Below are positions 1 through 8,530 of a DNA stretch of 8,530 bases, one piece after another (within the stretch, counting starts at the first letter, position 1; each line of letters begins with the position of its first letter). A program made the translations under genes and the position numbers. This DNA comes from Bacillota bacterium (GTDB lineage Bacteria > Bacillota_A > Clostridia > Lachnospirales > Bianqueaceae). The stretch spans positions 1 through 8,530 of the forward strand of contig JAFOIR010000348.1 in NCBI GenBank assembly GCA_017420625.1, written 5' to 3'. The notes below the pieces were generated by a model. That model was not told the origin of the DNA, ran no database searches, and worked only from the letters and a program-made list of their open reading frames with translations.

Positions 1-16
1 CCCACTATCGTCCCCT
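1..16. repeat. 16-base direct repeat, copy 1
   Basis: The first 16 bases, cccactatcgtcccct, recur exactly and in the same orientation at 5768-5783. On the minus strand the repeat reads AGGGGACGATAGTGGG and begins inside the TAG stop of the ferredoxin-like gene (15-17). The copy is cut by the window edge, so the identity may extend to the left; at the second copy it is preceded by ttttga. It may be the end of a mobile element or another dispersed repeat. The match is seen directly; the nature is inferred. Confidence 0.7.
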
Positions 17-728
17 AATCCAGCACTCTGCCGTCTCTCGAAATCGTAACGACCTGCCATGGGATGAACTTGCCGCTGGCCTGCAGTGCGATCTCTGCAG
101 CTCGCTGCAGTCCGCCGCAGCACGGCACTTCCATGCGAACGATCGTTACACTCTTAATGTCGTTGTCCCTGATGATGGCGGTCAGTTTCTCCGTGTAGTC
201 AACATCATCCAGCTTCGGGCAACCGATGATGGTGACTTTGCCCTTCATGAACTCCTCATGCAGGCTGGCATATGCAAAGGCAGTACAATCCGCCGCAATC
301 AGGAGTTTCGCTCCATCGAAGAACGGCGCCTGGATCGGGACCAGTTTGATCTGGCACGGCCACTGGGCGAGACGGGATACCGGATTGGCGGTAGACTGCG
401 CCGACTCCGGTTCTTCTGCAGGGCCTTCCTTCGCACCGGCAAACTGCGCCACACTCGATCCCGGGCATCCTCCCCCGCCGAGGAGTTCCTGCATCCGCTG
501 ATGCACTTTCACTGCCGCTTCATCATATTCCGGCGCTTCCCTTTCCTCGAAGGTGATCGCCCCTGTCGGGCAGGCGGGCAGGCAGTCGCCGAGACCGTCG
601 CAGAAGTTTTCCCGCACGAGTTTCGCCTTGCCGTCAATCATTTCGATGGCGCCTTCATGGCAGGCTGCGGCGCAAAGTCCGCAGCCGTTGCATTTTTCTT
701 CATCTATATTGATTATCTTTCTGAGCAT
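15..728 (-). CDS. 4Fe-4S ferredoxin-like protein with C-terminal cysteine domain
   Basis: This 237-residue protein has an N-terminal ferredoxin module and a longer C-terminal domain. The first cluster motif is C13-x2-C16-x2-C19-x3-C23. The second is C43-x5-C49-x3-C53-P: the expected second cysteine (position 46) is Leu within CDGLGDC, a variant I recall as usual in this family. Residues about 55-120 are a low-complexity linker. The rest carries further cysteines, including a CCGG motif near residue 204. No signal peptide or membrane segment is seen, so it should be cytoplasmic. It probably passes electrons or binds metal; the partner is unknown. It is the last gene of the asr operon, 45 bases after the CGGC-domain gene, with AAAGGA 9 bases before the ATG. 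Its stop codon overlaps the repeat at 1-16, so the natural C-terminus may have been altered. Relatives occur near other anaerobic redox genes such as hcp (from memory). Confidence 0.85.
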   Translation of the reverse strand: MLRKIINIDEEKCNGCGLCAAACHEGAIEMIDGKAKLVRENFCDGLGDCLPACPTGAITFEEREAPEYDEAAVKVHQRMQELLGGGGCPGSSVAQFAGAKEGPAEEPESAQSTANPVSRLAQWPCQIKLVPIQAPFFDGAKLLIAADCTAFAYASLHEEFMKGKVTIIGCPKLDDVDYTEKLTAIIRDNDIKSVTIVRMEVPCCGGLQRAAEIALQASGKFIPWQVVTISRDGRVLD

Positions 729-773: not shown

Positions 774-1211
774 TCAATCAAAGGCTACATTTTCGTATAC
801 TTTGTATTTTCCCTGTGCGCGCAGTTTGCGTGTAGGTTCACTCTGGAAAGACCCCTCGACGATATTCTCGAAGCCCTTCTTCTGAATGATTTCCTTCATA
901 TAGTCAACATTCGGGCATCTGTCATGATGCTTGTTGTCTGTTACAACGCAGCTGGCAAGATGAACTGCAACTTCTGATTTTTTGATGTCCGTTCCCATAC
1001 GCATCTTCTTTGCGAAATGCTCCAGATATCCCGCCACGCGTGTTCCACAGCAGCCTCCACAGGTCATCGTCAGAAACTTCGTATCCGCAGGATATCCCTC
1101 AAATGCGGCGCCTCTTTCGAAAAAACAATTCGAGCATGAAAAGCCTGAACATCTTTCTCTGGAATGCTCACACTGAATGACAACTACGTACTTGATTAAA
1201 TCCTTATTCAT
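774..1211 (-). CDS. CGGC-domain protein
   Basis: I chose the ATG at 1211 (145 residues) because GGAGG lies 6 bases upstream. An in-frame ATG at 1244 would add 11 residues but overlaps the channel gene by 41 bases and has no clear ribosome site. The protein is cysteine-rich: C14, C21, C26, C29, the signature C51-G-G-C54-C55, then C88 and C99. This pattern matches the CGGC domain family, which is thought to bind metal but has no established reaction. It is soluble, with no membrane segment. Its start overlaps the end of the channel gene by 8 bases (1204-1211), which implies translational coupling and a role tied to sulfite reduction or sulfide handling. Possible jobs are metal or cluster delivery, or binding a sulfur species; nothing here decides between them. 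Confidence 0.85.
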   Translation of the reverse strand: MNKDLIKYVVVIQCEHSRERCSGFSCSNCFFERGAAFEGYPADTKFLTMTCGGCCGTRVAGYLEHFAKKMRMGTDIKKSEVAVHLASCVVTDNKHHDRCPNVDYMKEIIQKKGFENIVEGSFQSEPTRKLRAQGKYKVYENVAFD

Positions 1212-1986
1212 AACAGTCCTCCTTTTTTTCTCTTGACCCAACATGATACGGCAATGCTACGAACAGAATCGCTCCAATCATGTTGCCAAACGTCACTACG
1301 ATGAGATTGAACCAATATCCTCCCATAGTGATCGCTTCGTTCCCGCCGTTATCGATGAGCGCGAGGGTCAGCAATGTCATGTTGGCTACGCTGTGCTCAA
1401 AACCCGTAGCAAAGAACGCAAGCAGGCACCAGAACACCATAATCAGCTTTCCAGCGTCTGATTTCGCTCGGAAACCGCACCATACAGCCAGACATACCAA
1501 AGTATTACACAACGCACCTCTTGCAAGAAGCGGTATGAAGCCTGCCGTCATCTTTGCTGCCGCAGTGGTTGTCATTGCTGTCAGCGTCGCATCACTGTAG
1601 AGCCCTGTCAGGCTGAATACAATTGCCAGCAATACTGATCCCACCAGATTTCCGATCCAGCAGACTCCCCACAGTTTTAGCGTGTCCGTAATCGTTACTG
1701 TCTTGCGAAGTACGCCTGCAGTCATTACCATATTATTTCCGGTAAACAATTCTGCTCCTGCAATCACCACAAGACTCAGCGCAACGCCGAAGCAGCAGCC
1801 CATCACAAGCTTGGTATACGGTGCTCCGTCAAGCGCTCCGCTTAATGTAAATACAAGAAGGATACCAAACCCGATGTATGCTCCCGCCAGTACCGACAGC
1901 AAAAAATAGCCAGCCGGATTCTTCTTCAGAAGAGTTGCTTTTGCGACAGCCCCTTTGGAAGCCGCCGTGAATTCTTCATTAAACAT
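1204..1986 (-). CDS. Formate/nitrite-family channel, probable hydrosulfide channel
   Basis: A 260-residue integral membrane protein with about six hydrophobic helices, typical of the FNT family (FocA, NirC, HSC), which forms pentamers. Family features visible are AELFTGN (residues 78-84), the GNLVGS segment (112-117), RGALCN (156-161) and FEHSVANM (196-203) with the central pore histidine at about 198. FNT channels pass small monovalent anions such as formate, nitrite or hydrosulfide. The position directly after asrC points to hydrosulfide release, and perhaps sulfite entry, as described for the HSC/FNT3 channel encoded beside asrABC in Clostridioides difficile. The ATG has AAGGA 7 bases upstream. 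It is 27 bases from asrC and overlaps the next gene by 8. The family is certain; the substrate is inferred from context. Confidence 0.92.
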   Translation of the reverse strand: MFNEEFTAASKGAVAKATLLKKNPAGYFLLSVLAGAYIGFGILLVFTLSGALDGAPYTKLVMGCCFGVALSLVVIAGAELFTGNNMVMTAGVLRKTVTITDTLKLWGVCWIGNLVGSVLLAIVFSLTGLYSDATLTAMTTTAAAKMTAGFIPLLARGALCNTLVCLAVWCGFRAKSDAGKLIMVFWCLLAFFATGFEHSVANMTLLTLALIDNGGNEAITMGGYWFNLIVVTFGNMIGAILFVALPYHVGSREKKEDCYE

Positions 1987-2013: not shown

Positions 2014-3036
2014 CTACTCTTCTCTTTCTGAGAAGCGGAACATCGACTGTCTCAGCTCATTGCTCTGATCATAACGTTTGCCGCCCCAGTAGATGCGGCC
2101 CTGGATCTCGCATTCCGGATTCGGAGTGACATCCTTCATGATATACTTCAGGAATTCTTCAAAACCGGTACGGTCTACGATGTATCCGATATGCTCTTTG
2201 CTTTCGACAGCAGCTCTGTCCATGTATTCATCCAGATATGCATAAACGTTGCAGATGACCTTTTTGATGGTATCGTGATCTGCCCACTTCATGAAGTCTT
2301 CTGCAAGGCGCGGATTCTTCTTCCCGGTACGCCCGAGAAGAACCATGCGGAAGTAGTCTTCCTCGCTTCTTGTCCAGGCACGTGTCGGACAATAGATCAC
2401 GCATACTCCGCAGCCGACACACTTGTTCGTGTCACGTTCTATCTTCCCATTGACGATCTCCAGCGCTCCGACTGATCTTTTCTTGCAGTACTTCACGCAT
2501 TGCTCACAGCCGATGCAGCGATCCTTATCATACTGTGGCTCAGTCTGGCCAAGAATGCCGAAATCATTGAGACGTACGTGGGCGCAGTCATTGGAACAGC
2601 CTGTGAAGGCGATCTTAACGTGATGGTCGTTCGGGAAAATCGCCTTGTCGATCTCCTGCGCAAACTTCTTCGTATCGTAGCAGCCGAACGGGCAGAGTTG
2701 TTTGCCTGGACAGGCCACGACATTACGTGTTCCGGAAGCAGGATATCCGCCGTTGTACTCCTCCTGATTGACGTTTCTGTTCTCAATAATCAGCTGAAGT
2801 GCCTTGTTGACTTCTTCCAGATCAGCCAGGTCGATTCCCGGAATCTCAAATCCCTGTCGATTGGTGATGTTTACCATGCCCTTGCCGTATTTCCTTGCGA
2901 TATCGACGACGCGCTGCAGCGAATCCACGTCGATCTCTCCGCCCGGACAGCGCACACGGGAAGCAGTCTCGCCCCTGACCTTGGACTGACGGAAGGCATT
3001 CTTCTTCAGTTTTTTCACATTGATATCAAGTGTCAT
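2014..3036 (-). CDS. asrC: Anaerobic sulfite reductase subunit C (siroheme catalytic subunit)
   Basis: The catalytic subunit, which carries out six-electron reduction of sulfite to sulfide in the cytoplasm. Counting from the ATG at 3036 (340 residues), the siroheme/4Fe-4S pair motif is C109-x5-C115 (CPGKQLC) and C147-x3-C151 (CSNDC). Two ferredoxin clusters follow: C174/C177/C180/C184 and C206/C209/C212/C216-P. The N-terminal half is a nitrite/sulfite reductase ferredoxin-like domain. An in-frame GTG at 3045 lies directly against the AAAGGAG ribosome site with no spacing, while the ATG at 3036 has 8 bases of spacing, so I prefer the ATG. The gene is 23 bases downstream of asrB. All cofactor cysteines are present and the length fits the AsrC family, so it should be functional. 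Confidence 0.96.
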   Translation of the reverse strand: MTLDINVKKLKKNAFRQSKVRGETASRVRCPGGEIDVDSLQRVVDIARKYGKGMVNITNRQGFEIPGIDLADLEEVNKALQLIIENRNVNQEEYNGGYPASGTRNVVACPGKQLCPFGCYDTKKFAQEIDKAIFPNDHHVKIAFTGCSNDCAHVRLNDFGILGQTEPQYDKDRCIGCEQCVKYCKKRSVGALEIVNGKIERDTNKCVGCGVCVIYCPTRAWTRSEEDYFRMVLLGRTGKKNPRLAEDFMKWADHDTIKKVICNVYAYLDEYMDRAAVESKEHIGYIVDRTGFEEFLKYIMKDVTPNPECEIQGRIYWGGKRYDQSNELRQSMFRFSEREE

Positions 3037-3059
3037 TTCTTTCACTCCTTTCCGTTATC

Positions 3060-3854
3060 CTAGTCGATCATGTTTTTGCTTTCGGTATAATTGAAAACCG
3101 GTCCGTCGAGGCAGACATACTTCTCGCCGATGCGACAGTGTCCGCACTTGCCGAGTCCGCAGCACATCTTGCGCTCCTGGGAAACCCAGATATTCTCTTC
3201 TTTGAAGCCTTTCTCGAGCAGACCCTGCACTGCAAATTTCATCATGATCGGCGGTCCGACCACAACGGCCTTTGCTTTTGCAGCATCGCGCAGAGGCAGA
3301 TCAGGTATGAATGCGGTAACCAGCCCGGTCTTACCTTCGTATCCCTCCGGTGCGCCGTCGACGGTGAGGATCAAATCCAGCTTTTCGTTCCAGCGTTCCA
3401 GGTCATCCCGAAAGAGCATGTCGTCCGGGCTCTTGAATCCTACGATGACATGCTTATCTTTTGGCTCTGCTGTGTCCGTCAGTGCGTCGATGACGCCGCG
3501 GACCGGAGACACGCCGGTGCCACCAGCCACGACAACGACTTCGCCCTCTTCGTAGAGTGACGTGTCGAATCCGTTGCCGTACGGTCCGCGCATAAGCAGA
3601 CTGTCGCCGACGTAGCGTTCAAACACTTCGTTCGTGACGCGGCCTACACGGCGAATCGTCAGGTCTACAAAATCTTCGCCGATGCCGCTGACAGAAATCG
3701 GCGCCTCCCCGTACTTCGGAATGGAAACTTCGAAAAACTGTCCCGGTTTCACATCGCCTGCGAATTCCATTCGAAAGGTGTATTCTTTATCCGTATGTTT
3801 GATCACTTCCTTGATCTTTGATGGGAACGGAATGTATGGATTCTTATTTGTCAT
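3060..3854 (-). CDS. asrB: Anaerobic sulfite reductase subunit B (FAD/NADH, 2Fe-2S)
   Basis: The electron-input subunit, which takes electrons from NADH through FAD and a 2Fe-2S cluster and passes them to AsrA and AsrC. It has 264 residues from the ATG at 3854. The FAD-binding barrel covers about residues 10-100, with APISVSG at 51-57. The nucleotide-binding fold starts at AGGTGVSPVRG (110-120). The C-terminal 2Fe-2S ligands are C232, C237, C240 and C248, as in PyrK-like reductases. An earlier ATG at 3884 would add 10 residues, but the 3854 start has AGGAGG 6 bases upstream. The start overlaps the asrA end by 11 bases, consistent with coupled translation. PyrK (dihydroorotate dehydrogenase electron-transfer subunit) is the closest alternative; the asrA and asrC neighbours rule it out. 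Confidence 0.96.
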   Translation of the reverse strand: MTNKNPYIPFPSKIKEVIKHTDKEYTFRMEFAGDVKPGQFFEVSIPKYGEAPISVSGIGEDFVDLTIRRVGRVTNEVFERYVGDSLLMRGPYGNGFDTSLYEEGEVVVVAGGTGVSPVRGVIDALTDTAEPKDKHVIVGFKSPDDMLFRDDLERWNEKLDLILTVDGAPEGYEGKTGLVTAFIPDLPLRDAAKAKAVVVGPPIMMKFAVQGLLEKGFKEENIWVSQERKMCCGLGKCGHCRIGEKYVCLDGPVFNYTESKNMID

Positions 3855-4869
3855 CGCCAGCCTCCTTCCCTGCTGCATCCGCAACCTTGTTGATAATATT
3901 CGAGAATGAAATGTACTCCGGACATACCATGTCGCAGCGGCCGCAGCCCACGCACATGTCGTAGCCCGTGCGCGCCCGGAAGTCGTGAATCTTGTGGAGC
4001 ACTTTGAAACGCATGCGCTCTCCGTTGGTCTTTCGGTACTGTCCGCCGCCGGCTACATCCGTGTAGCCGTCGATCATGCAGGATCCGCCGACTCTGCGGC
4101 GCTCACCCACTTTGCCGTTGTCCGTGTAGAACACATCCTGCATGGTGTAGCAGGTGCAGGTCGGGCACACGATGGTGCACCGGCCACAGTTCACGCAGCG
4201 CTTCGTGTATTCATCCCACAGTTCATCACTGTAGATGCTGAGAGGAATGTCTTCCGGAACGGTCACAGCTTTTTGATTCTCCGTCACACACCACGGCTCC
4301 ACATCCGCTTCCGTGCCTCCTGCTTTTGCAAAAGCTTCCGCAAAGGCAGGATCCGGCGTATCGCAGCGGAACATGCCTTCACTTTCATCAACGGAGAACA
4401 CGTATCCGTCCTCAGTCCGGTTCGTCCCCATGTCCACGCAGAAACAGTCATCAAAGCTTTTGCTGCATCCAATCAGAGCGAACTTCACAAGATCTCTGCG
4501 TCTTCTGTAGAACCAGTCTTCTTCGCTGCCGTTCTCCAGATACATGTGATCCAGTCGTTTCACTGCGTGCATATCACAGCTGCGCAGGAATACGATGACC
4601 GGACGCTCATCGATGTCCGCTTCCTTCACCTGGTTCTCTGTAAAGAAGAACAGAGTCTCTGACAAAGGCAGCATGAATTCCTTGAACGCGTAGTCCGATT
4701 CGACTGTCAGTTCGATTTCTGAAGCATCGCTGACAAAATCGTACCGGACCAAGTCCACATCCTTGAATCTGCCCTCTCCTTTCTTGCACACCGGCGCGAA
4801 GATCCGGTATGTTTTTCCCAGCTGGCGCATCGCTTCACCGAACTGGTCTTTGCTTAATAGATATCCCAC
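3844..4869 (-). CDS. asrA: Anaerobic sulfite reductase subunit A (4Fe-4S electron transfer)
   Basis: AsrA carries electrons between AsrB and AsrC. Counted from the GTG at 4869 the protein has 341 residues. Two 4Fe-4S motifs lie in the C-terminal part: C225/C228/C231/C235-P, followed by extra C238 and C240, and C306/C309/C312/C316-P. The N-terminal 200 residues form the AsrA-type domain, with more cysteines at 98, 135, 142 and 144. The longest frame starts at an ATG at 4926, but I prefer the GTG: AGGAGG (4875-4880) is 5 bases upstream, the N-terminus MGYLLSKDQF fits the family, and the predicted transcription start (about 4903) lies downstream of the ATG. First gene of the operon, divergent from a Crp/Fnr regulator that probably controls it. 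Confidence 0.95.
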   Translation of the reverse strand: MGYLLSKDQFGEAMRQLGKTYRIFAPVCKKGEGRFKDVDLVRYDFVSDASEIELTVESDYAFKEFMLPLSETLFFFTENQVKEADIDERPVIVFLRSCDMHAVKRLDHMYLENGSEEDWFYRRRRDLVKFALIGCSKSFDDCFCVDMGTNRTEDGYVFSVDESEGMFRCDTPDPAFAEAFAKAGGTEADVEPWCVTENQKAVTVPEDIPLSIYSDELWDEYTKRCVNCGRCTIVCPTCTCYTMQDVFYTDNGKVGERRRVGGSCMIDGYTDVAGGGQYRKTNGERMRFKVLHKIHDFRARTGYDMCVGCGRCDMVCPEYISFSNIINKVADAAGKEAGDDK

Positions 4870-4901
4870 AGTTGCCTCCTTCCTCCTGATTCCGTTATTT
4901 G

Positions 4902-4915
4902 CCAGTTTCATTGTA
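4902..4915 (-). promoter_or_regulatory. Predicted asrA promoter (-10 box and start site)
   Basis: On the minus strand, TACAAT at 4915-4910 matches five of six bases of the -10 consensus and predicts a start site near 4902-4904. No good -35 hexamer lies 16-18 bases upstream; that space holds a run of seven T and the edge of the palindrome at 4935-4952. A missing -35 is what an activator-dependent promoter should show. The resulting leader of about 33 bases carries the AGGAGG before the GTG start. Inferred, not mapped. Confidence 0.55.
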
Positions 4916-4934
4916 TCAGAAGCCATAGAAAAAA

Positions 4935-4952
4935 ACGTTGCGTACGCAACGT
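4935..4952. promoter_or_regulatory. 18-base perfect palindrome, likely Crp/Fnr operator
   Basis: ACGTTGCGTACGCAACGT is a perfect inverted repeat between the divergent asrA and regulator genes. Its core, TTGCG-TA-CGCAA, has the two-fold symmetry and size of Crp/Fnr-family sites but is not the classical FNR (TTGAT-N4-ATCAA) or CRP (TGTGA-N6-TCACA) half-site. The centre (4943.5) falls at about -41.5 from the predicted asrA start, the class II activator position, and at about -30 from the predicted regulator start, where binding would block RNA polymerase. The palindrome is seen directly; the binding protein is inferred to be the regulator next door. Confidence 0.75.
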
Positions 4953-4966
4953 GTGCGACTTATACT
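4938..4966 (+). promoter_or_regulatory. Predicted promoter of the Crp/Fnr regulator
   Basis: TTGCGT (4938-4943) and TATACT (4961-4966) are separated by 17 bases. The -10 is good; the -35 keeps only the TTG and lies wholly inside the palindrome, suggesting autoregulation. The predicted start near 4973 would leave only about 14 bases of leader, with GGGAGG (4973-4978) at its very 5' end. That is short, so the true start may lie further upstream. Confidence 0.45.
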
Positions 4967-4986
4967 GAAGGCGGGAGGCAATGGAT

Positions 4987-5649
4987 ATGGATCATCAAAT
5001 CGAGAAATACATGAAAAATCCGCTGTTCGAAAACATCGCAGCGGATCATCTGCAGGCCATGCTGGGCTGCCTGCACAGTTATACAAGAAACTATAAAAAA
5101 GGCGAAGTCATCATCATGGAGAAGGACTCCATCCGGTACGTGGGCATCGTGCTTACCGGAACGGTCCATATGATGAAAGAAGACATCTGGGGACGTCAGA
5201 CTTTGCTGACATATACCTCAGAGAACGAGGTTTTTGGGGAGACTTTTGCCGTGCAGAAAAATCCCGATTCCTATGTAACTTTTATTGCAGGGACAGATAC
5301 TTCTGTCCTCTTCGTCGCCGCCTGGAACGTCATTCACTGCTGCCCAAGCCAGTGTGTATTTCATGAACAACTGACGCGGAATATGTTTGATCTGATTGGC
5401 CGGCGCAGCATCCGGCTTATGGAGCGGATTGAGATTTCCTCCAAGCCGTCCCTGCGCGAAAAAATCCTGGCCTACTTATCAATGCAGGCCCAGAAGCAGG
5501 ACAGCCGTTACATCACGCTCCCGCTGGGACGCACGGAACTAGCCAACTACATTGGCGCCAACCGAAGCGCCCTGACCCGCGAGCTCGCCTCCATGCGGGA
5601 GGACGGACTCATCGATTACGAAAAGAATACATTCCGGATTCTAGAATAG
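4987..5649 (+). CDS. Crp/Fnr-family transcriptional regulator of the asr operon
   Basis: A cyclic-nucleotide-binding-like sensor domain (about residues 15-130) and a dimerisation helix lead to a C-terminal winged helix-turn-helix (about 181-216), in which NRSALTREL is the recognition helix. I prefer the ATG at 4987 (220 residues) because GGGAGG is 8 bases upstream; the ATG at 4981 has only 2 bases of spacing. Numbering from 4981, cysteines occur at 30, 120, 121 and 125, the last three as HCCPSQC. Four cysteines could hold an iron-sulfur cluster or sense redox or sulfur species, but they are not in the N-terminal arrangement of E. coli FNR. The sensor domain lacks an obvious cAMP-binding signature. 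Its divergent placement and the shared palindrome suggest it activates asr under anaerobic or sulfite-rich conditions. The signal cannot be read from the sequence. Confidence 0.9.
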   Translation: MDHQIEKYMKNPLFENIAADHLQAMLGCLHSYTRNYKKGEVIIMEKDSIRYVGIVLTGTVHMMKEDIWGRQTLLTYTSENEVFGETFAVQKNPDSYVTFIAGTDTSVLFVAAWNVIHCCPSQCVFHEQLTRNMFDLIGRRSIRLMERIEISSKPSLREKILAYLSMQAQKQDSRYITLPLGRTELANYIGANRSALTRELASMREDGLIDYEKNTFRILE

Positions 5650-5921: not shown

Positions 5922-6854
5922 TCATTCTAAACCTACTCGTTCACAATACTCTCCCCAATATCCATCATCACCTTCAACGTTATGGAGCCATACATATAAC
6001 AGTATCGCCTCTAAATATTGTTTTTTTCTGTTTAAGAATTGCTTTTTCGGCATTCCTGAATACAAACTGTCAATAGAGAACAGATTGTTCTTCTGTCTGT
6101 AATCATATTCCCAGTACAATGGTTCGCCAGATTTTAGCTGATACATTTCTATATACTTACTTTTTTTCTTATGTTTTGGAGGCCATTGTTCTGGATGATC
6201 ATAATAGTTATTAATATAGTCTTCGCAAAAGTTGAACACATTGACGCCCCGTTCTTCATATGTATCCTTTATCCAATTATCAATTTTTTCACTAATATGA
6301 AAGTCCTCATCCATCAAATTATAAATGCGATGCTGATCTTTTAAGAATCGGTAGATCATTTCAGATTGACCTTCAAGAAACGGGAATCTTTTTATTGCTT
6401 TAGGATATACATCATACGATAATGCACGGAACTCTGCCTCGGAATCATATAAATAGAAGTACTTATCAGCAATGAAGTTTTTCAATTGCATATGCATGTA
6501 CTTTCCTTGTGCTGCATAAAGGCCTACCAACCACTCCTTTATTTCCGCAGAATACTGTTTTACATTTCTCTGTCTATAATTATCTATTTTTTCGTTATGT
6601 AAAATTGTTTCCTCTGAACCGCCGATTGAATCCAGATAATTATTGAAATACTCAAACACATAATTGACGCAAACCTTGGTGTTTTCAGCACGCGCTTCGA
6701 GATTGTATTCGTCAAGGCCATCTTCTTTTCTTCTGTGGGCAATGTATTCGTCGATTCTCATTTGGAATTGTTTTACTCCTTTTTCATATTGCTTATCAAA
6801 CCAACGTATAATTCCTTCAAAAAAAGGGAAATGCCTAGGAGGCAACGTACACAC
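5922..6854 (-). CDS. Unrecognised 310-residue protein, possibly damaged at both ends
   Basis: I do not recognise this protein. It is soluble, rich in Tyr, Phe, Asp, Glu and Lys, with no signal peptide or membrane helix. It may contain a diverged internal duplication: HFPFFEG with a later NYVFEYFNNYLD (residues 8-14 and 64-75) resembles RFPFLEG with NFCEDYINNYYD (156-162 and 208-219), and EKIDN occurs at 88-92 and 189-193. The stated start is a GTG at 6854 with no clear ribosome site. An ATG at 6868 has AAGG 7 bases upstream but is in another frame, which ends after about 25 codons; moving to the main frame needs a -1 shift, possibly at the T7 run in ccctttttttgaagg. A downstream start at 6761 (Met32) has AGGAG about 13-14 bases before it but would lose the first repeat. 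The frame continues beyond the TGA. A consensus promoter lies just upstream. AT-rich, unlike the sulfur locus. Confidence 0.6.
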   Translation of the reverse strand: MCTLPPRHFPFFEGIIRWFDKQYEKGVKQFQMRIDEYIAHRRKEDGLDEYNLEARAENTKVCVNYVFEYFNNYLDSIGGSEETILHNEKIDNYRQRNVKQYSAEIKEWLVGLYAAQGKYMHMQLKNFIADKYFYLYDSEAEFRALSYDVYPKAIKRFPFLEGQSEMIYRFLKDQHRIYNLMDEDFHISEKIDNWIKDTYEERGVNVFNFCEDYINNYYDHPEQWPPKHKKKSKYIEMYQLKSGEPLYWEYDYRQKNNLFSIDSLYSGMPKKQFLNRKKQYLEAILLYVWLHNVEGDDGYWGEYCERVGLE

Positions 6855-6875
6855 AGCACGCTTAGCATTTAGCTA

Positions 6876-6879
6876 CCTT
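6876..6879 (-). promoter_or_regulatory. Ribosome-site candidate for an out-of-frame ATG (6868)
   Basis: AAGG lies 7 bases before the ATG at 6866-6868, about 20-30 bases after the predicted transcription start. This is the best initiation signal near the 5' end of the unknown gene, but its frame encodes only a short hydrophobic peptide (MLSVLCVRCLLGISLFLKEL and on) unless the ribosome shifts frame. It may initiate the main gene through an indel or programmed shift, make a leader peptide, or be chance. Confidence 0.4.
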
Positions 6880-6901
6880 ACCTAGGTCTTACTTCACTTA
6901 A

Positions 6902-6930
6902 AGTATAGCACTCGCATCACCGCTTGTCAA
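6902..6930 (-). promoter_or_regulatory. Consensus sigma-70-type promoter for the unknown gene
   Basis: On the minus strand, TTGACA (6930-6925) is a perfect -35, and TATACT (6907-6902) follows after exactly 17 bases. The -35 lies in the last codons of the DUF3800 gene (Ile-Asp-Lys). The predicted start near 6895 gives a leader of about 40 bases. The unknown gene is therefore probably transcribed on its own, strongly, as well as by read-through. Confidence 0.8.
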
Positions 6931-7624
6931 TTGAGGCACTTAAGTCGATTTTATCCATTCGTCCTCTTTTTCCCTTACCTGGGAAAACACCAAGTCTGAA
7001 TTTAGATGGATTTATCGCCTCTACAACATCTCGAACCACGTCAATATCCTTTGATCGCATATACATTGTATTGACCACAAAATCCGCAAGCTGTATTCCA
7101 TAATGCGTTGCCGAATCATAGTATTTTACAGAAAAGGAATAATCATTATAACAGAACTCGGTTTCAAGATATTTTTGGAGATCCTTCAAGTCATCAACAC
7201 TGATATTTCTGTTATCAACAGCTAGCACGAACTCAAAGGGCTCGTTGTTTGGTAGCAACTGCAATATTACATCGTGAAATAGTAGCTTTACACCGAAATT
7301 GAAAAAGATGTTAGTCTTTTCAATTTCTTTTCGCATATTGCTTTTATTAAACTGAATTGCACATCCATAGAAATTATCTAACACCTGAATTCCATTCAGC
7401 ACCTCCTTTTTTTCCTGAACAGTCATCTCACGTGTTTTCAATTCCCTTGATAGCGGAATGCCTCTTCTCTCTTTATGCCTTTTATTGATTTTTTTATATT
7501 TACTAATTATTTTATGGACTTGATTAGGTTCTCCGAAAGCAATATATCCGCCAATCACAAAATAATTAGTTGGGCTATTCTTATGTATCGAACCCGATTC
7601 ATCCAAATATACAAATATCTTCAA
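6917..7624 (-). CDS. DUF3800 domain protein
   Basis: 235 residues, starting with TTG at 7624, which has GGAGG 6 bases upstream and leads straight into the family's N-terminal strand. Hallmarks of DUF3800 are YLDESG (residues 6-11), ELK (61-63), VDNRN (136-140) and QLADFV (178-183). The conserved acidic residues (D8, E61, D137, D181) suggest an RNase H-like metal-dependent fold, but no reaction is established for most members. The family is common in accessory and mobile regions and sometimes near defence genes. Its TGA (6917-6919) is 62 bases from the GTG of the next gene, whose promoter begins inside this gene. AT-rich codon use suggests horizontal acquisition. The start and motifs look intact. 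Confidence 0.88.
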   Translation of the reverse strand: MKIFVYLDESGSIHKNSPTNYFVIGGYIAFGEPNQVHKIISKYKKINKRHKERRGIPLSRELKTREMTVQEKKEVLNGIQVLDNFYGCAIQFNKSNMRKEIEKTNIFFNFGVKLLFHDVILQLLPNNEPFEFVLAVDNRNISVDDLKDLQKYLETEFCYNDYSFSVKYYDSATHYGIQLADFVVNTMYMRSKDIDVVRDVVEAINPSKFRLGVFPGKGKRGRMDKIDLSASIDKR

Positions 7625-7668
7625 TGCTTTCCTCCGATTTGACCCTCATAATCTCTTATGCCGATATG

Positions 7669-7674
7669 ATTATA
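7669..7674 (-). promoter_or_regulatory. Extended -10 promoter of the DUF3800 gene
   Basis: On the minus strand TGGTATAAT is a perfect -10 with the TGn extension. A weak -35 (TTCAGA, four of six) lies 18 bases upstream, as extended -10 promoters tolerate. The predicted start near 7662 gives a leader of about 38 bases carrying GGAGG before the TTG start. Confidence 0.7.
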
Positions 7675-7723
7675 CCATACTCAATACCAGATTCTGAAGG
7701 GCTTAGTGAGGAAAAAACACTCC

Positions 7724-7751
7724 TTGGCCAACAACGATTTTTTGTTATAGA
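7724..7751 (+). promoter_or_regulatory. Weak candidate promoter for the IS3 transposase
   Basis: TTGGCC (7724-7729) and TATAGA (7746-7751), each four of six to consensus, are 16 bases apart on the plus strand upstream of the transposase. Transcripts would have to pass the hairpin at 7761-7778. This is the best pair I could see in the gap, but a weak one. Confidence 0.3.
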
Positions 7752-7760
7752 ATGCCTTTT

Positions 7761-7784
7761 ATCTGCACTTTTGCAGATCTTTTT
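7761..7784 (+). terminator. Terminator-like hairpin upstream of the transposase
   Basis: ATCTGCA (7761-7767) pairs perfectly with TGCAGAT (7772-7778) around a 4-base loop, followed by cttttt. It is a short intrinsic-terminator shape on the plus strand, 33 bases before the transposase ATG. Such structures can shield a transposase from outside transcription. The stem has only seven pairs, so strength is uncertain. Confidence 0.5.
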
Positions 7785-7816
7785 ATTCCAATATATTTAT
7801 TGCAAGGAGGTAAACA

Positions 7817-8530
7817 ATGAAACGTCAACACTACACGAACGAAGAAAAGGAAAAACTGCTTTTCCGATATGCATCTGAACCAACAGATGTGAAGGATCTG
7901 CTCCAGGAAGCAAGCATTCCCAAAAGCACTTTTAATCAATGGCTGCGGGAATATGACACACAGCATAACTGTCAGAGCGAAAATGATTACAGCCCAAGGA
8001 ACTTCCGGCACCTCAAAGCGCGGAATCTGCACCTGGAAGACATTATCGCAGTCCTGAATGATTCCTACTGTTCTCCCCGGGCATCTCTTCGGGAGCGTCT
8101 GAACGAAGCAGAACGATTGCGAAGTTCCTATAATATCCATTTGGTCTGCGAAGCACTCGGCCTGTCACGCAGCACTTTCTATAACCACATCAAACGCAAT
8201 CATCGTGAACGCGCATGGTTCTTTCTTCGGCGTGAGGAACTCAAAAAACAGATCAGAGAACTGTTTGATGACAGTTCACAGATCTACGGTGCACGGAAAA
8301 TGGCAGCTGTTTTAAGAAAACGGGGCGTTGTTGTCAGCACAAGACTCGTTCGTGAATTGATGGTTGAAATGGGATTGATCAGCGTCCGTGTTTATTCCAA
8401 TTATCTCTACAGCAAAGAATTCGGCAAATACAAAAACTATTTGAAACAGGAATTTGATGTCGATGCTCCAAATAGAATCTGGGTCAGCGATGTAACCTAT
8501 TTCAAGTACAAGGAGAACCCCTACTACATC
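7817..8530 (+). CDS. IS3-family transposase, single frame, cut by the window edge
   Basis: An open frame of 238 codons runs off the right edge. It starts at ATG 7817 with AGGAGG (7805-7810) 6 bases upstream. Order of parts: an N-terminal helix-turn-helix (about residues 6-47), a Leu-rich coiled segment (about 65-100), a second helix-turn-helix (about 104-128, LGLSRSTFYNHIK), an HTH_21-like region (about 143-187, IYGARKMAAVLRKRG), and the start of the rve/DDE integrase core at NRIWVSDVTYFK, where D225 is the first catalytic Asp. The rest of the core (second Asp and Glu) lies outside. Most IS3 members split orfA and orfB and join them by a -1 frameshift; here both parts read continuously in one frame. 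The left terminal repeat should lie between 7625 and 7816, but I could not fix it without the right end. Confidence 0.93.
   Translation, partial: MKRQHYTNEEKEKLLFRYASEPTDVKDLLQEASIPKSTFNQWLREYDTQHNCQSENDYSPRNFRHLKARNLHLEDIIAVLNDSYCSPRASLRERLNEAERLRSSYNIHLVCEALGLSRSTFYNHIKRNHRERAWFFLRREELKKQIRELFDDSSQIYGARKMAAVLRKRGVVVSTRLVRELMVEMGLISVRVYSNYLYSKEFGKYKNYLKQEFDVDAPNRIWVSDVTYFKYKENPYYI
7817..8530 (+). mobile_element. IS3-family insertion sequence, left part
   Basis: The transposase marks an IS3-family element whose left end is upstream of 7817 and whose right end is beyond the window. Boundaries, terminal inverted repeats and target duplication cannot be set from this sequence; the start given is that of the gene only. 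Confidence 0.75.

Follow-up and report, generated by a model that had tools for sequence, protein, structure and literature searches.

The closest described relatives of the system analysed here are the HcpR regulators, of which the HcpR1 and HcpR2 groups of Desulfovibrio, Clostridium, Bacteroides and other bacteria control hcp and frdX (PMC545781, PMC1274295). The published HcpR consensuses are TGTGA-N6-TCACA, TTGAC-N4-GTCAA and GTAAC-N4-GTTAC (PMC545781, PMC1274295), and a site located ahead of the -35 element, or overlapping it slightly, is predicted to mediate activation (PMC545781). Ser-181 is present in the HcpR proteins of C. difficile and C. thermocellum, and HcpR2 proteins with Ser-181 use a different motif (PMC1274295). 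In C. difficile, an hcpR mutant was eightfold more sensitive to nitric oxide (NO) and not to reactive oxygen, and its frdX and hcp transcripts stood at -3.04 and -2.62 log2, respectively, without NO treatment (PMC12915319), as expected of an activator. Here we analysed a stretch of 8,530 bp from a Bacillota bacterium (family Bianqueaceae; assembly GCA_017420625.1, contig JAFOIR010000348.1; hereafter the window), in which an 18-bp palindrome lies between asrA and a divergent Crp/Fnr regulator gene. Judging from sequence comparison, this palindrome very probably serves an HcpR-type regulator as its control switch. We consider it likely that this clostridial HcpR-type regulator, answering NO or nitrite, activates asrABC and an frdX-type ferredoxin gene through the palindrome as its operator and thereby limits its own promoter. 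With asrABC as its output, the switch would be a further variant of the HcpR system.

The region between the two genes and the regulator itself contain the following features, in window coordinates:

4935..4952, no strand: putative operator, palindrome ACGTTGCGTACGCAACGT, with the core GTTGC-N4-GCAAC at 4937-4950 (palindrome search, and motif kept in relatives)
4910..4915, minus strand: asrA -10 box TACAAT, first base 28 nt from the operator centre (sequence; the 28-29 spacing is kept in relatives)
4903..4903, minus strand: predicted asrA transcription start, with a leader of about 34 nt (inferred from the -10 box)
4938..4943, plus strand: -35-like hexamer TTGCGT of the regulator gene, within the operator (sequence)
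4961..4966, plus strand: regulator -10 box TATACT, first base 17 nt from the operator centre (sequence and relatives)
4987..5649, plus strand: Crp/Fnr regulator of the clostridial HcpR type, start ATG 4987 or 4981 (profiles and alignment)

The palindrome at 4935-4952 reads ACGTTGCGT followed by ACGCAACGT, is perfect over 18 bp, and is flanked by asrA on one side and the divergent Crp/Fnr gene on the other. There is no second perfect 18-bp palindrome in the 8,530 bases of the window, and at least one was found in 8 of 20,000 simulated 111-base stretches generated with a first-order Markov model of the region. If the -10 box spans -12 to -7, the offset of 28 nt places the operator centre at about -40.5 relative to the asrA start. 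The hexamer at the asrA -35 position (ACGTTT, 17-nt spacer) is a poor -35 element. On the other strand, TATACT sits 17 nt from the centre, so that TTGCGT occupies the regulator -35 position with a 17-nt spacer. A consensus scan of positions 4700-5200 found no sigma-70 promoter, which is the expected result if both promoters lack a good -35 element. The asrA gene likely starts at GTG 4869, after GGAGG; the ATG at 4926, which gives the longest open reading frame (ORF), was rejected because it lies upstream of the -10 box, and the TIGR02910 match spans the protein from GTG 4869. For the regulator, ATG 4987 appears the likelier start, being located 8 nt after GGGAGG and giving a protein of 220 aa, the length of many relatives.

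To place the palindrome among relatives of the regulator, we used an alignment of 42 regulators as the query with one genome per species, and the best 80 of at least 527 confirmed relatives were taken as loci L001-L080. In the nearest relative (genome G001), the regulator and AsrA are 97% and 99% identical to those of the window, respectively. Of the 80 loci, 53 have the motif GTTGC-N4-GCAAC in the 300 bp preceding the regulator, as do 26 of 48 after merging regulators at least 80% identical; in random 300-bp windows more than 1.5 kb from the regulator, it occurred in 149 of 20,000. In the same upstream regions, the motif with any of five other spacers, three rearranged versions of it and the sites of FNR, HcpR1, HcpR2 and CRP were all found in 0/80; the HcpR1 and HcpR2 sites belong to other HcpR groups. 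A search beside orthologous regulators, suggested by the original prediction made from the bare sequence, thus bore the palindrome out. The half-site was given there as TTGCG/CGCAA, neither the FNR nor the CRP consensus; its last G is not conserved, and the half-site kept in relatives is GTTGC/GCAAC with a free N4 spacer.

The position of the site relative to the promoters is strongly conserved. We scored a -10 matrix at every offset from the site, requiring no -10 box beforehand, in 39 non-redundant promoters of hcp, asrA, nrfA, ferredoxin, hemerythrin-PAS and molybdopterin oxidoreductase genes and of a recurrent gene lacking a Pfam match. Loci L001 and L002, as copies of the window, were omitted, and the window asrA promoter fell outside the set because its ORF had been called from 4926. 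A -10-like hexamer starts at offset 29 in 37 promoters and at offset 28 in the other two, while the next-best offset, 31, is found in 6 of 39; all seven non-redundant asrA promoters are at offset 29. Two of the 37 have a better -10 at a different offset (L006 at 32 and L077 at 24). Offset 29 corresponds to -41.5, the class II position. The best -35 element matches at most two of six consensus positions in 30 of the 39 promoters, compared with 47% in the background. On the regulator side, the -10 box starts at offset 17 in 16 of 29 promoters and at 23 in 7, and with either spacing the site covers the -35 element of the regulator. This conserved geometry strongly supports a wiring in which one site serves for class II activation at asrA and also covers the -35 element of the regulator gene, as originally predicted together with the weak asrA -35 element; in the window organism, the wiring remains a prediction. 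The predicted centre of about -41.5 holds for 37 of the 39 promoters of relatives, whereas the window itself, at offset 28, gives about -40.5.

Genome-wide, GTTGC-N4-GCAAC by itself is not specific: G001 has three matches against three for a reversed control, and G004 one against 14. Of 393 genomes of the order, 131 have a match to the composite pattern of the site with a -10 box at 28 or 29. The reversed control of this pattern gave 49 matches in 47 genomes (rows counted by eye), and many of the composite matches are accordingly due to chance. Ninety composite-match loci were inspected, 30 supplied by the tool and 60 picked by hand rather than at random, with L209 and L210 being the same site. 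By our own count, the site lies directly upstream of hcp or an frdX-type gene in 30 of the 90, and many other matches fall inside predicted ORFs.

Among these loci, L187-L190 carry the regulator, a divergent frdX-type ferredoxin gene and hcp, with the site at offset 29, and are of the Clostridioides type. In the genome of L188 (G107), the regulator ORF has 242 aa, which agrees with the length of C. difficile hcpR, 729 nt (PMC12915319). The FNT protein, a formate/nitrite-family channel, of the same genome agrees by eye with the 3tdo chain over the aligned stretch. The 3tdo structure is from C. difficile. The window and the Clostridioides-type loci share the operator GTTGC-N4-GCAAC, with the -10 box at 28 in the window and at 29 in the latter. 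The window regulator also resembles C. difficile HcpR (CDR20291_2076), as represented by the regulators of L187-L190, in its Crp/Fnr type, Ser-181, the four conserved residues considered below and the frdX partner, but the target is frdX-hcp in C. difficile and asrABC-FNT-CGGC-frdX in the window. In the stretches examined, the asrABC genes of the L187-L190 genomes lack the site.

Analysis of the regulator protein is consistent with this assignment. It matches PF00027 and PF13545 above cut-off, which is the Crp/Fnr architecture, and the recognition positions Arg180, Ser181 and Arg185 (R-S-R) are kept in 117 of 120 aligned regulators, including that of the window. Crp/Fnr domains, R-S-R, the operator of hcpR-frdX-hcp loci and the link to hcp and/or frdX are all present, as in HcpR regulators. 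The FNR box TTGAT-N4-ATCAA and the CRP site TGTGA-N6-TCACA each occur in 0/80 upstream regions, and residue 181 is Ser rather than Glu, so that the regulator was assigned neither to FNR nor to CRP. An AlphaFold model of the regulator has a mean predicted local distance difference test score (pLDDT) of 88.2, and its best Foldseek match is the P. gingivalis HcpR (PDB 9day, E 7.9e-15), which ranks second by sequence with 22% identity. A search of viral contigs for the regulator gave no match.

Alignment of the regulators revealed a quartet of three cysteines and one histidine, C30/C121/C125/H128 (numbered from 4981). All four residues occur in 112 of 120 rows and none of them in seven; L030 is the single row missing only Cys30. 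Such joint loss is the pattern expected from a shared metal or cluster site, and the quartet suggests a metal sensor. The arrangement differs from the usual FNR cysteine pattern. It also differs from the P. gingivalis HcpR, for which heme binding via Met68/His149 has been proposed (PMC12750200), and the HcpR1/HcpR2 regulators are described as lacking an FNR-type cysteine motif (PMC1274295). In a separate observation, the regulators of L226, L227 and L230 have the same recognition residues and no Cys/His quartet, and the site of both L226 and L227 is followed by the gene of a substrate-binding protein (NMT1/phosphonate-binding like in L226), which suggests paralogues with another signal.

The genes transcribed away from the palindrome on the asrA side, all on the minus strand, are as follows:

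3844..4869, minus strand: asrA (TIGR02910, 460 bits), GTG start (NCBIfam profile)
3060..3854, minus strand: asrB (TIGR02911; NCBIfam profile)
2014..3045, minus strand: asrC (TIGR02912), catalytic subunit of the sulfite/nitrite reductase type (NCBIfam profile)
1204..1986, minus strand: FNT channel (profile and solved structures, the 3tdo set being closest and NirC next)
774..1211, minus strand: CGGC-domain protein (domain search)
15..728, minus strand: frdX-type two-cluster ferredoxin of 237 aa (domain search; related to the ferredoxin adjoining hcpR/hcp elsewhere)

All three Asr profiles (TIGR02910, TIGR02911 and TIGR02912) exceed the NCBIfam cut-offs. Like other operons of asrABC with an FNT/HSC channel, the operon comprises the three subunits and an FNT gene, but it goes beyond the usual asrABC-FNT in having the CGGC-domain gene (774-1211), which sits between the FNT and ferredoxin genes, the frdX-type gene, which is the last operon gene before the window edge, and the HcpR-type operator.

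Among the 80 regulator loci, hcp (cluster 1, TIGR01703) is present in 37, with the site at most 300 bp upstream in 27, and AsrA is present in 23 by our own count of the table. The site also precedes frdX genes, NrfA-type cytochrome c552 genes (L018 and L036), hemerythrin-PAS genes and the gene of an ODP/flavodiiron-type protein (L073). In L069-L071, it precedes a molybdopterin oxidoreductase gene; the L071 protein comes closest to formate dehydrogenase or assimilatory nitrate reductase without reaching the cut-off for either, and its gene is followed by a run of ferredoxin, NAD-linked flavoprotein, SLAC1-type anion channel and asrA genes. AsrC was found in all three genomes of L069-L071. Going by the domains, which were checked in L071, the gene run of these loci resembles nitrate reduction coupled to AsrABC. 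Locus L003, with a regulator 74% identical to that of the window, has the identical palindrome, which is predicted to drive a pyridoxamine-oxidase-like flavoprotein gene (PF12900; -10 TATGAT, offset 29) and an frdX-type ferredoxin gene, and AsrA was not found in its 1.0-Mb draft genome. Together, these targets indicate that the site follows the regulator and that the theme of the regulator is nitrogen oxides rather than sulfite. In the draft genomes of the nearest relatives of the window (G001, G002 and G003), hcp was not found, and NrfA was not found in G001-G004. The flavodiiron/ODP family matched in all of G001-G004 and is uninformative.

Several further genes recur near the site. A 196-aa protein (cluster 3; L041:782-1372 and 16 further loci) is encoded near the regulator in 17 of the 80 loci; its L041 copy has no Pfam match, and the -10 box is at 29 in all six non-redundant cases with the site upstream, so that it may be an unnamed regulon member. 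Small flavoproteins are repeated site targets (L003, L224, L228 and L229), the L003 and L229 copies matching PF12900 pyridoxamine oxidase. In L198-L200, the composite site precedes the gene of an acyl-CoA dehydrogenase that also has fused ETF and rubredoxin domains (Pfam on L199), and an ODP-type protein is encoded nearby.

To view asrABC independently of the regulator, two samples were drawn through AsrA. A sample of the order comprised 198 genomes, 52 of them, including G001, with AsrA above cut-off, and 54 asr loci were examined, not counting that of G001, where the site is present; 30 of the 54 have about 1.5 kb on each side of asrA, so that a more distant regulator would be missed, and L123 and L156 overlap. 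A sample of the phylum of L067 comprised 398 genomes, 30 of them with AsrA above cut-off. In the first sample, one locus (L107) has the site in front of FNT-asrABC, next to a regulator relative; in the second, the exact site precedes asrA by 102-109 bp in three loci (L266, L269 and L270). A -10 box at offset 29 stands beside all four of these independently found sites. In L266, one site is shared by asrA and a divergent frdX, with the -10 box at 29 serving frdX and TATAAT at 30 on the asrA side. HcpR-type control of asr is thus a minority arrangement, yet a recurrent one, at 1/54 and 3/30 in regulator-blind samples. A tree of 75 AsrA rows divides into a side of 30 (support 98/86), to which the window AsrA belongs, and a side of 45. 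Each of the 24 rows that have the site or a relative of the regulator is on the former, and the rows of the latter show no regulator or site in the fetched stretch. In 12 of the 24, a regulator relative is present and the site is absent within 1.2 kb upstream. This clustering reflects in part the choice of rows, since rows obtained via the regulator were mixed with rows obtained via AsrA. Eight rows of the order sample lie on the regulator side, and two of these eight (L107 and L151) have a Crp/Fnr relative beside asrA, that of L151 having 30% identity and no GTTGC site. Locus L156 (genome G161) contains several tandem asrA, asrB and asrC copies and pieces on one contig.

A number of observations weigh against an HcpR-type switch of asrABC. 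The site is absent from 53 of the 54 asr loci of the order sample and from 27 of the 30 of the phylum sample. The exact site is missing from the 300 bp upstream of the regulator in 27 of the 80 regulator loci; in 17 of these it occupies another part of the fetched stretch, frequently ahead of hcp or asrA, and the other 10 lack it throughout that stretch. Only 10 of the 21 regulator loci with a called asrA ORF have the site at most 300 bp upstream of asrA. In L039, L040, L042 and L043, asr adjoins the regulator and hcp, but the site serves hcp; a CRP-like palindrome (TGTGA-N6-TCACA) lies about 120 bp upstream of asrA, and a second Crp/Fnr gene stands beside it, so that asrABC-FNT in these loci appears to be under another regulator. 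The window offset of 28 is the minority value among the promoters of relatives, and the window regulator shares 36-37% identity with the Clostridioides-type regulator. In the draft genome of the nearest relative (L001), only a remnant of the ferredoxin remains, matching over 26 residues, and the frdX-type ferredoxin is therefore not fixed in the lineage; the remnant (L001:1700-1830) is either a true deletion or a draft-assembly fault. On the side of function, AsrABC is a sulfite reductase in Salmonella, where nitrite reduction survived its deletion (PMC10949509), and the asrABC of the Acididesulfobacillus studied in that paper was not linked to the site in our analysis.

The same paper provides published support for a nitrogen-oxide role. 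In Acididesulfobacillus grown on nitrate, asrABC transcripts rose 29-fold, the AsrABC protein 195-fold and hcp 30-fold, and nitrite reduction by AsrABC was proposed (PMC10949509). In addition, two paired genes resembling those of sulfite and nitrite reductases have been placed in the Desulfovibrio HcpR regulon, which gives the idea a precedent (PMC545781). Because HcpR-type regulators answer nitric oxide stress, the "sulfite" enzyme may serve against nitrite or NO, and the context points to nitrogen oxides rather than sulfite as its likely substrates. No link between HcpR and asrABC was found among the papers listed by a literature search that missed most subscription papers and RegPrecise pages; the single listed paper containing both terms mentions HcpR only in the title of a reference. 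Likewise, GTTGC-N4-GCAAC was not found printed in the papers searched, and the motif of Ser-181 regulators may stand in subscription papers, RegPrecise or a figure.

The best-surviving alternative is a local sulfur switch, in which the regulator would sense sulfite, sulfide or persulfide and activate asrABC with an FNT channel of the hydrosulfide type. The operon joins asrABC to an FNT close to the 3tdo set, the conserved cysteines could react with sulfur species, and L001 keeps asrABC and FNT while the ferredoxin that links the locus to HcpR is a remnant. We regard this switch as unlikely, since the relatives of the regulator with the same site mostly adjoin hcp, and also frdX, nrfA and hemerythrin genes; the identical palindrome of L003 drives a flavoprotein and a ferredoxin in a draft genome in which AsrA was not found, and 0/45 AsrA rows on the other side of the tree have the regulator or the site in the fetched stretch. 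The suggestion in the original prediction that the signal might be sulfite, a sulfur species or redox state is therefore disfavoured: the usual neighbours of same-site relatives are hcp and frdX, besides which nrfA, hemerythrin and a nitrate-reductase-like gene occur, and the site is absent from most of the asrABC operons sampled.

An FNR-like oxygen or redox switch, in which the quartet would hold an iron-sulfur or other metal centre and the nitrogen genes would be only part of the regulon, is less probable still. Cysteine-ligated iron centres can react with both O2 and NO, and the retention of the quartet in 112 of 120 rows with its loss as a whole in seven would suit such a centre; the quartet, however, does not follow the usual FNR cysteine pattern, and most of the recognised targets are nitrogen-oxide genes. 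In C. difficile, moreover, the hcpR mutant is sensitive to reactive nitrogen and not to reactive oxygen (PMC12915319). That the palindrome is an intrinsic terminator or a chance repeat is hardly credible: the minus strand has six T after the palindrome and was flagged as terminator-like, but the T run is missing at the same palindrome in L003 and in relatives, and the site is tied to a promoter at a fixed distance, upstream of both starts.

For the HcpR-type switch that we favour, the following mechanism is proposed. The regulator would sense reactive nitrogen, most likely NO, or nitrite through NO. Its dimer would bind the GTTGC-N4-GCAAC site, whose centre precedes the asrA start by about 41 bp, and recruit RNA polymerase as a class II activator to a promoter without a usable -35 element, and the same bound dimer would cover the -35 element of the regulator's own promoter, limiting regulator synthesis. 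The predicted output, asrABC-FNT-CGGC-frdX, would provide a sulfite/nitrite reductase, a channel and a ferredoxin of the HcpR partner type. In this lineage, in which hcp was not detected, AsrABC would probably reduce nitrite or another nitrogen oxide. More tentatively, a subgroup of AsrABC may be a nitrogen-oxide reductase that forms ammonium from nitrite, NO or hydroxylamine, has come under an HcpR-type regulator and replaces Hcp where it is absent, and the clostridial HcpR may sense NO through a Cys30/Cys121/Cys125/His128 centre rather than heme. Downstream of the regulator, the remainder of the window (5922-8530) encodes a 310-aa protein with no Pfam match, a DUF3800 protein and a transposase-like gene (HTH_21 and HTH_Tnp_1) that runs past the window end.

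Nitrite reductase activity of AsrABC has so far been a published proposal (PMC10949509), and the combination of an HcpR-type operator at a class II position, an frdX-type gene and, in three relatives, a nitrate-reductase-like gene makes it directly testable. The quartet of three cysteines and one histidine names four residues for mutation to find how this group senses its signal. In searches for the clostridial nitrosative-stress regulon, the motif combined with the promoter offset (-10 at 29) discriminates better than the motif by itself. The setting is that of anaerobic gut bacteria, where nitrite and sulfide production matter and where a presumed sulfite enzyme may instead serve against reactive nitrogen.

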